IMG/VR virus record: IMGVR_UViG_3300009085_000019 | Location: 1 to 37,109 of that record | Direction: 5' to 3' (one strand) | DNA length: 37,109 nt | Origin: a virus | Shown: positions 26,212-37,109 of the stretch, one piece after another | Position numbering within the stretch: the first letter of the stretch is position 1 | How the letters are laid out: every line of letters begins with the position of its first letter | The notes under the pieces: model-generated | What the model saw: the letters and a program-made list of their open reading frames with translations, nothing else | Databases searched by the model: none | What the model was told of the DNA's origin: nothing | Program-made: the position numbers and the translations under genes

Positions 26212-26399
26212 AGTTTTGACATCCTACATGTTTTGTCGTTAAACCGATAAATATGACCAACACTACAACCGAGGTTTAGTGCTACCTGTCTTAATGATCC
26301 GTACTTTTTTAAAGCTTTGTTGATCAGATCCTTCGAAGTTTTCTCGTGCATGTACTCGATCTGTGGTTCTTTGGGAGGCCGTCGTTTCTTTTTAGCCAT
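26178..26399 (-). CDS. HTH DNA-binding regulator of the accessory operon
   Basis: A 73-aa basic protein beginning MAKKKRRPPKEP. Residues 28-55 form a helix-turn-helix: ALKKYGSLRQVALNLGCSVGHIYRF. It has the size of Cro-like or antitoxin-type regulators. It is the first gene of the minus-strand operon after a 9-bp-arm inverted repeat at 26409-26444, so it probably regulates its own operon. It resembles the HTH protein at 32439-32645 in the recognition-helix area (IYRF versus IYRW). Confidence 0.6.
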   Translation of the reverse strand: MAKKKRRPPKEPQIEYMHEKTSKDLINKALKKYGSLRQVALNLGCSVGHIYRFNDKTCRMSKLWYEKLQKLVY

Positions 26400-26408
26400 A
26401 AGTTCTCC

Positions 26409-26444
26409 TGCTTGTTAATCGTGACAATCGATATGTAACAAGCA
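26409..26444. promoter_or_regulatory. inverted repeat upstream of the HTH operon
   Basis: TGCTTGTTA at 26409-26417 and TAACAAGCA at 26436-26444 are perfect 9-bp arms with an 18-base spacer that itself contains ATCG repeats. It lies 9 nt upstream of the HTH start codon and has no T run, so an operator is more likely than a terminator. Confidence 0.5.
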
Positions 26445-26468
26445 AGAGAAACTTTGTCTATACATTTA

Positions 26469-26687
26469 TCAGAAAGTATAAATTGTTTTCTTCTTAAGAA
26501 TAGTCTCAGAGCCTCTAATTATACGGATTCCTTCGGGATCTGACTCCTCTAGATATTCTCTAAGTTCACGAGGAGAGTTCGCAACAAAGAGCGCTTCTTT
26601 GATCACAAAATATTTAGGTTTTTCTTTTTTCGCTTCTGATGTTATATCGTCACAGATTGATTCGTTTGTTTCAAAAGGGTCATTCAT
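26469..26687 (-). CDS. small protein of unknown function
   Basis: A 72-aa protein: an acidic N-terminus then a compact alpha/beta segment (KYFVIKEALFVANSPRELREYL ... PEGIRIIRG) of the kind common in phage small proteins. It is divergent from the gene at 26752. No function is visible. Confidence 0.5.
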   Translation of the reverse strand: MNDPFETNESICDDITSEAKKEKPKYFVIKEALFVANSPRELREYLEESDPEGIRIIRGSETILKKKTIYTF

Positions 26688-26751: not shown

Positions 26752-26928
26752 ATGGCAAATCATAAAAGGATCGACCCGCACACTATAGCTTGTTTTCGGA
26801 TAAGCAAGAAAATATGGGCAAAGTTCGCCCGTTTATACCCAAACAAGTCAGAAAAATTACGAGACTATATAGATAAGGAAATAGAAAATGACAGTTGTAG
26901 CAAAAATGAGAGTCGTACTCGAAAGTAG
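26752..26928 (+). CDS. small basic protein, possible ribbon-helix-helix
   Basis: A 59-aa protein starting at the ATG at 26752 in a CCATGG context; a longer upstream frame lacks support. The segment RIDPHTIACFRISKKIWAKF followed by KLRDYIDKEI could be a strand and two helices like a ribbon-helix-helix regulator. Its end overlaps the next gene by 41 nt. Its divergent upstream region is AT-rich (TATATATATT), suggesting early promoters. Confidence 0.45.
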   Translation: MANHKRIDPHTIACFRISKKIWAKFARLYPNKSEKLRDYIDKEIENDSCSKNESRTRK

Positions 26929-27196
26929 CTGTTTCGACATCAAGGAAAAAATCGTGGTATTGGGGGTTCTGGCTAATGGAGAGCAGTCGATCGAGGATCT
27001 GCATAATTATACCTCGATTTCTAAGGCAATGCTGGAGCGGCTCTGCAATAAGCTTGTCGAAAGTGGTTATTTTGTCATAGAGCGCAAGGTATTTTCACGT
27101 TATTCACGTAAGATGTATAATCTCACTAACAAGCTGTTTGAACAGGACATTGTTAATGTGGGTAAAAACCCTATTGACTTGCTGATATATCAGTAA
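26888..27196 (+). CDS. winged-helix regulator candidate
   Basis: A 102-aa protein. Residues 16-75 have the pattern of a winged helix: KIVVLGVLANGEQSIEDLHN, TSISKAMLERLCNKLVESGY, then a basic wing (ERKVFSRYSRKMYNLT). The layout recalls small MarR/IclR-like or phage regulatory domains. It begins inside the previous gene and is followed by the structured leader of the initiator candidate. Confidence 0.5.
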   Translation: MTVVAKMRVVLESSCFDIKEKIVVLGVLANGEQSIEDLHNYTSISKAMLERLCNKLVESGYFVIERKVFSRYSRKMYNLTNKLFEQDIVNVGKNPIDLLIYQ

Positions 27197-27210
27197 TATT
27201 TATTTGTCGA

Positions 27211-27260
27211 TGAATCCTAAAGTAAAAAAGCAGCAAACCGTTTAAGATTCACTGCTTTTT
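27211..27260 (+). terminator. attenuator-like interleaved hairpins
   Basis: Hairpin A pairs 27211-27221 (TGAATCCTAAA) with 27241-27251 (TTTAAGATTCA), one mismatch. Hairpin B pairs 27225-27233 (AAAAAGCAG) with 27252-27260 (CTGCTTTTT). B resembles a weak terminator with A and T tracts on both sides. Because the left arm of B lies in the loop of A, they must form a pseudoknot or exclude one another. Confidence 0.5.
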
Positions 27261-27282
27261 ATTTAGCGAACTCTGTGTCATC

Positions 27283-27395
27283 AGAGGATTTTGAATTGTG
27301 AGCTCTAACTCGTCAATTCATAGGTGTAAATATACAAAATAAATTTTTGTTGCAACACTAAAAAATCCTCTCTTTAACAAAAAAGAAAGGATTTT
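27283..27395 (+). promoter_or_regulatory. RNA leader with hairpin over the ribosome-binding site
   Basis: A stem pairs 27362-27369 with 27388-27395 (8 bp), then after one mismatch 27371-27375 with 27382-27386 (5 bp), around a 6-base loop. Its right arm contains the AAAGGA ribosome site and ends one base before the ATG at 27397. Upstream, AGAGGATTTT at 27283-27292 is perfectly complementary to AAAATCCTCT at 27362-27371, the left arm, so it could compete and free the ribosome site. A 7-bp inverted repeat (TGAATTG 27292-27298 / CAATTCA 27314-27320) lies between. Confidence 0.5.
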
Positions 27396-27396
27396 A

Positions 27397-28290
27397 ATGT
27401 TATCAGACAACTGCACTTCAAAAAAAATAAACTTATCCACTCTTGGAATGAAAAATTCCCTTGAACATATCAAGTTCCCAACAAAATCTGAAAAAGCGGT
27501 TCTAACCAAGATGCACGAAAAATGTCCATTAACAGCAAATGGTCACGATCTTGATGCTTACTTCGATTATGCAAACGGTTCCCTTGGCTATCTCACAGAT
27601 AGGTGCGGTGAGACTGTCAGGGTAGCCAAGGAAGGGCTGCAAGCAAGAGGGGTTATACTTATAGATGGTCTGACTTGGGAGCAGTCACAGATCGAAAGGG
27701 ACGGTAAGATAGTCAGGGTAAGAACTCCGCACAATCAGCGTATCGAGTTTACACATGAATACAAAGTCTGGTTCAAGGCTTGCGTCACAGCCAAAAAGAT
27801 ACTCGGTGATAGGAAGTGGGGTTATTGTGACGGATATATCCAAAAGCGGGCTCTATCCCGCCTAAGATCCTCCTTGGCTATGGCTCGTTTCAAGGAGAGC
27901 GCTTTCAGCAAGGTGTTTATAAACATGGGGAAAACCTGTGAAGAGGTACAACAAAAATTGGTAACCCCCCTTACCAATTTTCTTGGTACATTTAATAAGA
28001 CACAAAATTCAAATTCAATAATTAAAGACAATAATAGAATCGGCTACGGTCTTCACTCAGATGAAAAGGTTTCCATAAAAGAAAAATTCATAAATCCTCT
28101 GATAGCGAACTTATCAGCATGTTCAAACAAGACAGTTAAAACGTGGACAGACGCCACGAATAAGATAGTTACTCAATTATTTCAATCAGGTATGACTAAA
28201 GTCGAGATCATTAGAACAATGATCAGACAAGGATATGTTAATACCGTGAATGAATTTGAGGCTAAATATTCACATCCAATGAACTGTTAG
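27397..28290 (+). CDS. winged-helix protein, replication initiator candidate
   Basis: A 297-aa basic protein. Residues 30-95 look like the helix-turn-helix at the N-terminus of phage replication proteins: TKSEKAVLTKMHEKCPLTAN, LGYLTDRCGETVRVAKEGLQ and ARGVILID. A Lys/Arg-rich middle (about 125-170) and a helical C-terminus follow. The gene lies upstream of ERF in the early block, which is where an initiator (lambda O-like slot) would be, and there is no other replication candidate. No ATPase or nuclease motif is visible. Translation is probably controlled by the leader structure. Confidence 0.4.
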   Translation: MLSDNCTSKKINLSTLGMKNSLEHIKFPTKSEKAVLTKMHEKCPLTANGHDLDAYFDYANGSLGYLTDRCGETVRVAKEGLQARGVILIDGLTWEQSQIERDGKIVRVRTPHNQRIEFTHEYKVWFKACVTAKKILGDRKWGYCDGYIQKRALSRLRSSLAMARFKESAFSKVFINMGKTCEEVQQKLVTPLTNFLGTFNKTQNSNSIIKDNNRIGYGLHSDEKVSIKEKFINPLIANLSACSNKTVKTWTDATNKIVTQLFQSGMTKVEIIRTMIRQGYVNTVNEFEAKYSHPMNC

Positions 28291-28670: not shown

Positions 28671-29393
28671 ATGGAAAACGAACAAAGAGAGAAACCAAGC
28701 GAATGCTTCCCAAAGATATACTCAATCATGGCCAAAGTCCTGGCTGATGTCGGTAGTGTGTCAAAAGATCGCAAGTCAGTGGGTAAATTTACTTTTGCCT
28801 ACAGGGGAATCGATGATGTCATGAATGCGCTGCATGAGGCTTTTGCTACTCATGGGCTATTCATTACACAGAGTGTTCTATCTCACGATATGAGCGTGAT
28901 AGAAGGCCGTGGAATACATCACATCATGAAAGTAGAATTCGGCTTCTACGCAGTCGATGGCAGCTCTATAAAGAGCACTGTCATGGGTGAGTGTATCGAA
29001 AACGGCGATAAAGGCACCGGCAAATGTATGAGTTATGCTCTTAAGACGTGCTTGCTTCAAACTTTCCTCATACCCACAGAAGACGAGTCGAAAGATCCCG
29101 ATAGCACTAATCAGCCAATAACAAGAGCTCAGCAATACCAGCAAGGGCAGCAGAGGCAGCAACAGCAACAAGCGCCACAGCCACAAGTTAAAAAAGAGGC
29201 TGCACAGACGCCGGAAATGAACGCCATCAAGGAATCAATAGTCAAGATCCTTGAAACAGAGGGTTATGATTGGCTCGGTAAAACGGGCAAGAGCAAAGAT
29301 TACCTAATCGGAAAAACGAAAGACGAAACTGATATCGGTAAGTTAAATTCGTTTTGGATCACTATTCAAAAGTTGATATCCGCCGAAGGATAG
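28671..29393 (+). CDS. erf: ERF-type single-strand annealing protein
   Basis: A 240-aa protein of the ERF recombinase family, which anneals complementary single strands and, as in P22, helps circularise or recombine the genome. Diagnostic features are the N-terminal YSIMAKVLADVGSVSKD, FAYRGIDDVMNALHEAFATHG (about residues 42-62), and GTGKCMSYALKTCLLQTFLI followed by the acidic PTEDESKDPD (about 115-145). A Gln-rich linker (QQGQQRQQQQQ, about 155-170) leads to a small C-terminal domain, as is usual for SSAPs. AAGGAGCAACA precedes the ATG, and it has its own promoter. Confidence 0.85.
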   Translation: MENEQREKPSECFPKIYSIMAKVLADVGSVSKDRKSVGKFTFAYRGIDDVMNALHEAFATHGLFITQSVLSHDMSVIEGRGIHHIMKVEFGFYAVDGSSIKSTVMGECIENGDKGTGKCMSYALKTCLLQTFLIPTEDESKDPDSTNQPITRAQQYQQGQQRQQQQQAPQPQVKKEAAQTPEMNAIKESIVKILETEGYDWLGKTGKSKDYLIGKTKDETDIGKLNSFWITIQKLISAEG

Positions 29394-30772: not shown

Positions 30773-30836
30773 GGAATAGACTATTTTAGAGCTAGTCTAT
30801 TCCGAATAGACTAGTTTAGAGCTAGTCTATTTTTTT
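30773..30836 (+). terminator. tandem duplicated terminator hairpins
   Basis: First hairpin: GGAATAGACTA (30773-30783) / TAGTCTATTCC (30793-30803), 11 bp. Second hairpin: AATAGACTAG (30805-30814) / CTAGTCTATT (30822-30831), 10 bp, followed by five more T. They are near-identical direct repeats. The stop of the minus-strand gene at 30827 lies in the second stem, so the structure may stop transcription from both sides. Confidence 0.8.
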
Positions 30837-34531: not shown

Positions 34532-34861
34532 ATGACGAGAAAAAAAGCGTTAACTATTTGCCGGTCTGTGCGAGCTAAAACAATCTGGGCTATGGACTTT
34601 GATTATTTGCCACAGCTCAATGACGAACAGATCGGATTCCTAGCGGATTTTTGCAACTTTTACTACCATGGTTCACCCCATAAAGTTGAAAGCTTGCAAA
34701 TTACCCAAAAGCTAAGAAAAGAGTCTTATAATCGTAATAATAAAGCAGAAAGTGATATTTACACGAAGTTTAAGAAAGAAGGGGAAGAGCTGGCAGATAG
34801 TATGCCTGATTTTTATGATGAAGATTATATCATTGAGTTTATTGACAAAAAGTATATATAA
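34532..34861 (+). CDS. small protein of unknown function
   Basis: A 109-aa protein with CAGGGG upstream. It is mixed in charge, with an acidic C-terminus (DSMPDFYDEDYIIEFID). Sequence AMDFDYLPQLNDEQIGFLADFCNFYYHG near residues 20-47 suggests a small helical fold. No family recognised. Confidence 0.5.
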   Translation: MTRKKALTICRSVRAKTIWAMDFDYLPQLNDEQIGFLADFCNFYYHGSPHKVESLQITQKLRKESYNRNNKAESDIYTKFKKEGEELADSMPDFYDEDYIIEFIDKKYI

Positions 34862-34879
34862 ACAATAACATGATATTGT
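34862..34879. promoter_or_regulatory. 18-bp inverted repeat, operator candidate
   Basis: ACAATA (34862-34867) and TATTGT (34874-34879) form a dyad with a 6-base spacer, just upstream of TATAAT at 34885-34890. It lies immediately after a stop codon and 25 nt before the next start. The TATAAT box is very close to the start codon, so its use as a promoter is uncertain. Confidence 0.35.
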
Positions 34880-34903
34880 CTATATATAATTTTGAGGTGT
34901 TTT

Positions 34904-35958: not shown

Positions 35959-37109
35959 GGCACAGGCCAGGGCGTATCTTTGGACTCACGGTGATCTACA
36001 GTACAAACTGTGGGAACAGCAAGAAATCATATATCAAACAATCAGGAAACTTCCACGCAATGTACAGATCGTGGTTGTGCTTTGCTCGAGACAGTTTGGG
36101 AAGTCTGTGCTCGGTACGATCCTTGCAACAGAAGACTGTCTTCGCAATCCCGATGTTGTCGTGATGATAATCGGACCCACTATCAAGCAAACGAGGTCTA
36201 TTGTCAGACCACGAATGAAGCTCATCACAAGAGATGCACCAGAAGGGCTTATCAGGACAGTGAAAAGTGAGGACACTTGGTACTTTTCCAACGGCGCCGA
36301 GCTCAAACTTGGTGGGTTCGATACTAACGCCGGCTCAGAGCGTGGAAAAACGCTCTATAAAGTTTACATTGAAGAGATTGTCGACTCAGATCCCGATGGC
36401 TACCTTGAGTTTTTGCGCTCTGACTTGGGTCCAGCGCTTACTCACAGCAAGCATAGCCAGATCATCTATTTGACGACACTTCCAAAGATCCCCGATCATC
36501 CATTTTGCCTTGAAACTGTGCCAACAGCAGAAGAGAATAACGCTTTCTTCAAATTTACGATCAAGGACAACAAGAAGCTCGATCAAGATCAGTACGACGC
36601 TTGCGTGAGGATGTGTGGCGGAGAGCACACAGCAGACTTCAAGCGAGAGTACATGTGTGAGCAGATCAGAGACTCGACAATCATCCTGTGTCCAGAGTTT
36701 GACGACAAAATACATGTGATGGATATAGTGCTACCGGAATACTGTTCATTGTGGATAGGAGGAGATGTTGGAGGAATCAGAGATAAGTCCGTATTTTTGC
36801 TTATGGCATATGACTTTCCACGAAACAAAATATTGGTACTTGATGAGAGAGCGTACAACCCTGATACCGGCTCAGCTATCATGGTTGCAGGTGCGACAAA
36901 CATGGAGCAACAGTATCAGATTCCAGGAAAAATCAAACTCATGGCGAGGTATGTGGATTCGGACGGACAGCTTAGGGTGGATTTTATGCAACAACATAGT
37001 TATCCGGTTGCGCTTCCGAGGAAGGATGAGCTCGAGGCCACAGTTAATCAGGTGCGTGTGGCCGTCGCCAGAGGAGAGGTCGAGATATCACCAAACTGTA
37101 AGCTACTTA
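35948..37109 (+). CDS. terL: terminase large subunit, N-terminal part (continues at 1-318)
   Basis: This is the packaging motor ATPase and nuclease. Joined across the genome ends the protein is 464 aa, and residue 360 begins at base 37025 (= base 1). Visible motifs in order are a Walker A-like CSRQFGKS (about residues 46-53), a Walker B-like KVYIEE (138-143) and the coupling motif TTLP (176-179). The RNase H-like nuclease domain follows, with Asp in IGGDVGG (about 273) and LDER (299-301). The start ATG at 35948 overlaps the end of the upstream small terminase candidate by 11 nt, the usual TerS-TerL coupling. The portal gene follows 2 nt after the stop. Its length is normal for phage TerL. The apparent truncation is only the window edge. 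Confidence 0.95.
   Translation, partial: MITKAQARAYLWTHGDLQYKLWEQQEIIYQTIRKLPRNVQIVVVLCSRQFGKSVLGTILATEDCLRNPDVVVMIIGPTIKQTRSIVRPRMKLITRDAPEGLIRTVKSEDTWYFSNGAELKLGGFDTNAGSERGKTLYKVYIEEIVDSDPDGYLEFLRSDLGPALTHSKHSQIIYLTTLPKIPDHPFCLETVPTAEENNAFFKFTIKDNKKLDQDQYDACVRMCGGEHTADFKREYMCEQIRDSTIILCPEFDDKIHVMDIVLPEYCSLWIGGDVGGIRDKSVFLLMAYDFPRNKILVLDERAYNPDTGSAIMVAGATNMEQQYQIPGKIKLMARYVDSDGQLRVDFMQQHSYPVALPRKDELEATVNQVRVAVARGEVEISPNCKLL
37025..37109. repeat. 85-bp direct terminal repeat, right copy
   Basis: This is the exact second copy of bases 1-85 and marks closure of the genome. Removing one copy leaves about 37,024 bp. Confidence 0.95.

Follow-up and report, generated by a model that had tools for sequence, protein, structure and literature searches.

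Hairpins that hide a Shine-Dalgarno (SD) site are a well-known kind of element. SD-hiding helices have been described for the phage T4 genes e, soc and 49 and for I-TevI (PMC3014915), counter-transcript control for pT181 (PMC3861533) and for the copG-rnaII-repB region of pMV158 (PMC4485353), and for MS2 a leader that is open for a short time before it reaches its final fold (described in PMC6733600). Here we analyse the leader of a 297-aa phage gene which can be set beside each of these systems and which is plausibly a new member of the SD-hiding kind.

As in T4 e, soc, 49 and I-TevI, and also in mobE of Aeh1, a phage gene has its SD and start region enclosed in a local helix predicted to block the 30S subunit. 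The locus differs from e, soc and 49 in that no promoter was found inside the 5´ arm, the gene is a different one and an upstream complement of the arm is present. With the repC attenuator of pT181 it shares a hairpin that directly precedes a (putative) initiator gene, but here the hairpin is probably a poor sense terminator, the antisense RNA is only putative and the protein is unrelated by any search. The resemblance to pMV158 lies in the small upstream genes, which a terminator-like stem separates from the putative initiator; in contrast to pMV158, no conserved antisense promoter and no CopG or RepB homology were detected. The maturation-gene leader of MS2 and the metastable hairpins of H. 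pylori aapA3 have in common with our locus a co-transcriptional order of alternative pairings around the SD, which here was computed, by equilibrium folding of growing chains only.

Genome and gene neighbourhood

The window, i.e. the whole stretch of DNA analysed, comprises 37,109 bases and corresponds to one virus record (IMGVR_UViG_3300009085_000019). It is probably a complete genome, because an 85-base direct repeat is found at both ends (1-85 and 37025-37109). The best match of its 681-aa protein (321-2366) is to a phage of Silvanigrella, at 27% identity. The 297-aa gene has a winged-helix-like (wHTH) gene as its 5´ neighbour (26888-27196) and an ERF single-strand annealing gene as its 3´ neighbour (28671-29393). 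Farther downstream, two tandem 30-base hairpins (GAATAGACTAGTTTAGAGCTAGTCTATTCC, 30774-30831) stand between convergent genes and are followed by a T run; they likely form a double terminator.

A predicted hairpin over the ribosome site

27362-27375, + strand: left arm of the SD hairpin, AAAATCCTCTCTTT, pairs with 27382-27395
27382-27395, + strand: right arm of the SD hairpin, AAAGAAAGGATTTT, carries the ribosome site AAAGGA (27386-27391)
27397-28290, + strand: 297-aa gene, putatively regulated, without family, with a 93% identical homologue in a relative (L003, see below)

The two arms form 13 Watson-Crick pairs, only three of them G-C, with one mismatch (C27370/A27387) and a 6-nt loop. The last base of the stem is 27395, and only 27396 separates it from the ATG at 27397. 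A first-pass annotation of this DNA had already described the hairpin, with its 13 pairs, single mismatch and position over AAAGGA one base 5´ of the ATG, and its coordinates are correct to the base. RNA folding of 27190-27430, which that annotation had proposed as a check, gave a minimum free energy (MFE) of -56.1 kcal/mol (z -5.8), and folding of 27350-27430 gave -14.1 kcal/mol (z -4.1). Hairpins with 13 or more pairs and no more than one mismatch were present in one of 300 shuffles of 27197-27450, and elsewhere in the 37-kb window there is only one (34853-34888). On these grounds the SD hairpin is beyond chance expectation.

Opening the SD at 27397 is computed to cost 10.5 kcal/mol, the second highest value among 49 start sites of the phage, which are those chosen as likely genes; most of the 49 cost less than 6 kcal/mol and the highest, at a minus-strand gene with its start at 26399, 12.5 kcal/mol. 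For every transcript start tested, the predicted unpaired probability of the GGA is 0 to 0.003 at 37 C, and the GGA is predicted to be closed at 10-50 C. The SD of the 297-aa gene is thus, by prediction, held in a stable local helix of the full mRNA, and it is very probably covered by an RNA hairpin. The thermosensor logic suggested in the first-pass annotation found no support: even at 50 C the predicted pairing of the GGA exceeds 99% (at most 0.7% unpaired), and the SD helix is not predicted to melt.

The costliest start site belongs to an HTH_50-like gene with an SD-hiding hairpin of its own (AAGTTTCTCTTGCTTGTTA/TAACAAGCAGGAGAACTT, within 26399-26470, minus strand), which is stronger than that at 27397. 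In L003 its lower stem over the SD is kept; the apical part is quite different and holds a 13-base insertion. If both hairpins act as they appear to, the phage employs the same device at two of its control genes (26399, minus strand, and 27397, plus strand).

Conservation in a single relative

We found one independent homologue of the 297-aa gene, in the record IMGVR_UViG_3300037041_002147 (L003). Protein searches of viral and genome contigs, tblastn against phage and plasmid records, blastn against phage records and searches with exact leader patterns yielded no further relatives; ERF- and portal-based searches did find relatives, all without a homologous leader. The SD hairpin of L003, in an alignment made partly by hand, shows no substitutions and single-base indels in four homopolymer (A and T) runs, by which the basal A-U pairing becomes one longer and the mismatch turns into a bulge; the stem is kept.

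The first-pass annotation had looked to related leaders for covariation, and for a loss of complementarity where the gene is conserved as a sign against its reading. In L003 the gene and the complementarity are both conserved, the latter by identity: neither for the SD hairpin nor for the decamer pairing (see below) was a compensatory substitution found in this one relative. The complementarity thus stands, weakly, and the covariation does not.

The leader differs from L003 at 18 of 196 aligned bases, compared with 13 of 59 fourfold sites in the N-terminal part of the gene (p 0.012). Since differences are fewer than at the fourfold sites, the leader appears to be moderately constrained, and selection may have acted on it. 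If pairing is assigned from the structure of the window only, differences fall on 3 of 126 paired and on 15 of 70 unpaired columns (p 2e-5); if it is assigned from L003 only, the effect is weaker (7 of 126 and 11 of 70, p 0.036). Identity between the two phages is about 90% over the stretch bounded by the upstream stop and the end of the 297-aa gene, with flanks at 55-80%, and the boundaries of this putative cassette (27189-28290, leader plus gene) lie near the two stop codons. Leader and gene therefore look like an exchanged cassette, or may be more constrained; given the resemblance to an exchanged cassette, part of the conservation probably reflects recent common descent. A long-range helix in the MFE structure (TTGTCGATGA/TTATCAGACAA) was rejected, one of its pairs being broken in L003 by G27406A. 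Elsewhere in L003 (9698-9910), an open frame almost only of Trp, Leu and Arg codons (LWLWLW...) represents a degenerate hexamer-like repeat array.

The upstream decamer

27225-27260, + strand: terminator-like stem AAAAAGCAG/CTGCTTTTT with an 18-nt loop (repeat search), T runs on both strands
27271-27286, + strand: local hairpin H1, CTCTG (27271-27275)/CAGAG (27282-27286), -4.9 kcal/mol
27283-27292, + strand: decamer AGAGGATTTT, all ten bases complementary to the left arm, identical in L003
27293-27319, + strand: hairpin H2, GAATTG...CAATTC; L003 retains the arms and has a different centre

The decamer is indeed the exact reverse complement of 27362-27371, as the first-pass annotation had stated. 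Its 5´ half is held in H1, which had been overlooked, as had the stem at 27225-27260, located 3´ of the upstream wHTH gene (stop 27196). The 23 nt from 27270 to 27292 are identical in L003.

Shuffles of the upstream leader never produced a perfect complement of at least 10 nt to the 14-nt left arm (0/2000), and did so in 38 of 2000 cases when both arms and the loop were allowed. In terms of strength the pairing is borderline, its free energy being equalled or exceeded in 31 of 1000 shuffles (57 of 1000 for L003). Roughly every second random place in the window also reaches the energy added by the decamer; these places are on the whole richer in G+C. The pattern of decamer, N56-86 and left arm also matches 12 other contigs, none with a relative of the 297-aa gene in the DNA examined; the arrangement alone hence arises by chance at that scale. 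The decamer is real; as a switch it is weak.

The first-pass annotation had proposed that the decamer would free the ribosome site. Our folding does not support this for the finished leader, in which the site is predicted to stay paired despite the decamer: relative to the full ensemble, the one with the decamer paired is higher by 2.9-7.3 kcal/mol, depending on which of four transcript starts that include the decamer is used for the complete leader. In growing transcripts, folded to equilibrium at each length and not kinetically, H1 is the first structure predicted, pairing of the decamer to the left arm follows at RNA ends of about 27369-27390, and the SD hairpin together with H1 takes over from about 27393; the order in L003 is the same. 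The decamer-paired left arm leaves four bases free (27372-27375), a toehold which can start displacement, so that the decamer-held open state is expected to be short-lived.

A proposed translation brake

Hairpin 27362-27395 is best explained as a cis-acting passive translation brake like those of T4 e, soc and 49, a reading to which we give an even chance. An RNA containing the leader is presumably made, and in the finished mRNA the hairpin would bury the SD of the 297-aa gene, ribosome starts would become rare and the protein, perhaps a replication initiator, would stay at a low level. The brake would be lifted if the hairpin were opened, be it by a trans factor or in a shorter mRNA. The decamer alone would not keep the site open, as it would pair with the left arm before the right arm is transcribed and then be displaced. 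We favour the brake because the hairpin exceeds chance, its SD opening cost ranks second of 49, the GGA is predicted closed, the stem is retained in L003 and a second SD is hidden at 26399 (minus strand). Against it stand the reliance on one relative, the fact that all hairpin changes are homopolymer indels without compensatory substitution, and the terminator-like character of the hairpin's minus strand. Should this reading hold, a hidden ribosome site restricts a key early protein in a phage of which few relatives are known.

Alternative explanations

Among the rivals a two-state switch survives best, and we consider it unlikely. Its four segments (27271-27275, 27282-27292, 27362-27371 and 27388-27395) would pair 1:2 and 3:4 in the off state or 2:3 in the on state, the choice being made by a ligand, a protein or a ribosome on segment 1 (27271-27275). 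All four are present and unchanged in L003, growing chains of both phages run through H1, decamer:left arm and finally H1 plus SD hairpin, and the 10-nt match is absent from all 2000 shuffles. The on state is nevertheless the unfavourable one in the full leader, by the 2.9-7.3 kcal/mol given above, the energy of the alternative pairing is borderline, and the left arm offers the toehold for displacement. The bistability seen by the first-pass annotation shrinks to RNA ends of about 27369-27390, after which the emerging right arm replaces the decamer. Its riboswitch logic also found no backing, as the leader matches no aptamer among the known families of Rfam at gathering score. A leader peptide was rejected too: the small frames of the window's leader differ in L003, and by eye no conserved peptide is seen.

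Ranked next, and rather improbable, is a hairpin that serves mainly as a bidirectional terminator or as a DNA site (operator), with SD occlusion incidental. The A tract before and the T tract after the stem, on both strands, would suit this, and the minus-strand copy passes the terminator scan. The hairpin, however, has only three G-C pairs and a short sense T run, and with a terminator that reaches the start codon the gene would truncate its own message.

Counter-transcript control of the pT181/pMV158 type comes just behind and is likewise improbable. An antisense RNA from the leader or gene start would pair with the leader and either set the SD hairpin or stop transcription. In pT181 repC, an upstream pre-emptor stretch can pair with the 5´ arm of the hairpin; the decamer, an upstream complement of the 5´ arm, is positioned like it. 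The minus strand offers terminator-like sites at 27395-27362 (T6; T7 in L003) and, by inspection, at 27260-27225 (T6), as well as a promoter-like site at 27316-27288 (9/12). In L003 the stem at 27225-27260 is unchanged and its loop diverged, as in antisense specificity loops. Together with the decamer and the terminator-like minus strand, this stem has the layout that a system of this type requires, which keeps the rival alive. Promoter-like sites, on the other hand, occur at shuffle frequency (7 vs 6.9), the one at 27316-27288 has a 19-nt spacer and, by inspection, a changed -10 in L003, and the sense T run at the end of the SD hairpin counts only four bases (five in L003). This run lies inside the stem, and on the plus strand the terminator scan does not report the hairpin.

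A four-segment kinetic gate, in which the decamer would briefly open the site during transcription before closure for the life of the mRNA, is very unlikely in our view. Only nascent transcripts would then yield the putative initiator, whose supply would keep pace with ongoing transcription; the leader offers a small test case for whether co-transcriptional refolding can open a ribosome site only on nascent RNA. Equally remote is timing by transcript length, with long early transcripts closed and a shorter one from inside the left arm open, which has its precedent in the SD-hiding helices of T4 e, soc, 49 and I-TevI (PMC3014915) and suits a leader located 3´ of an upstream operon, but for which the plus strand of the leader holds no sigma-70-like promoter of at least 9/12 (a consensus that may not cover phage-specific promoters) and no 8/12 candidate that would start inside the left arm.

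The 297-aa protein and a candidate origin

27946-27989, + strand: dyad GTACAACAAAAATTGGTAA-CCCCCC-TTACCAATTTTCTTGGTAC, origin candidate inside the 297-aa gene (repeat search)

Returning to the gene under the presumed brake, searches of Pfam, PHROGs, NCBIfam and PDB gave no significant match to its protein, and the AlphaFold model, at pLDDT 38.6, is too poor to tell anything about the fold. No sequence or fold similarity to a phage replication initiator, lambda O-like or other, was found. The replication-initiator role proposed in the first-pass annotation thus lacks backing from sequence or structure; what speaks for it is the ERF/RuvC/HNH neighbourhood and the origin-like dyad in the gene, and from its neighbourhood the protein may be an initiator. 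A block of 152 bases in the gene (27875-28026), which contains the dyad, is identical in L003, synonymous sites included. The dyad is followed by an A+T-rich run (region 27875-28040). This region may be an origin of replication that lies inside a gene, like that of lambda O, or else the product of recent recombination.

Leader and gene also have a 12-base inverted match in common (ATCAGAGGATTT/AAATCCTCTGAT, in 27264-27291 and 28092-28111), which adjoins a 9-base direct match (TAGCGAACT); perhaps these mark a shared protein site, perhaps they are due to chance.
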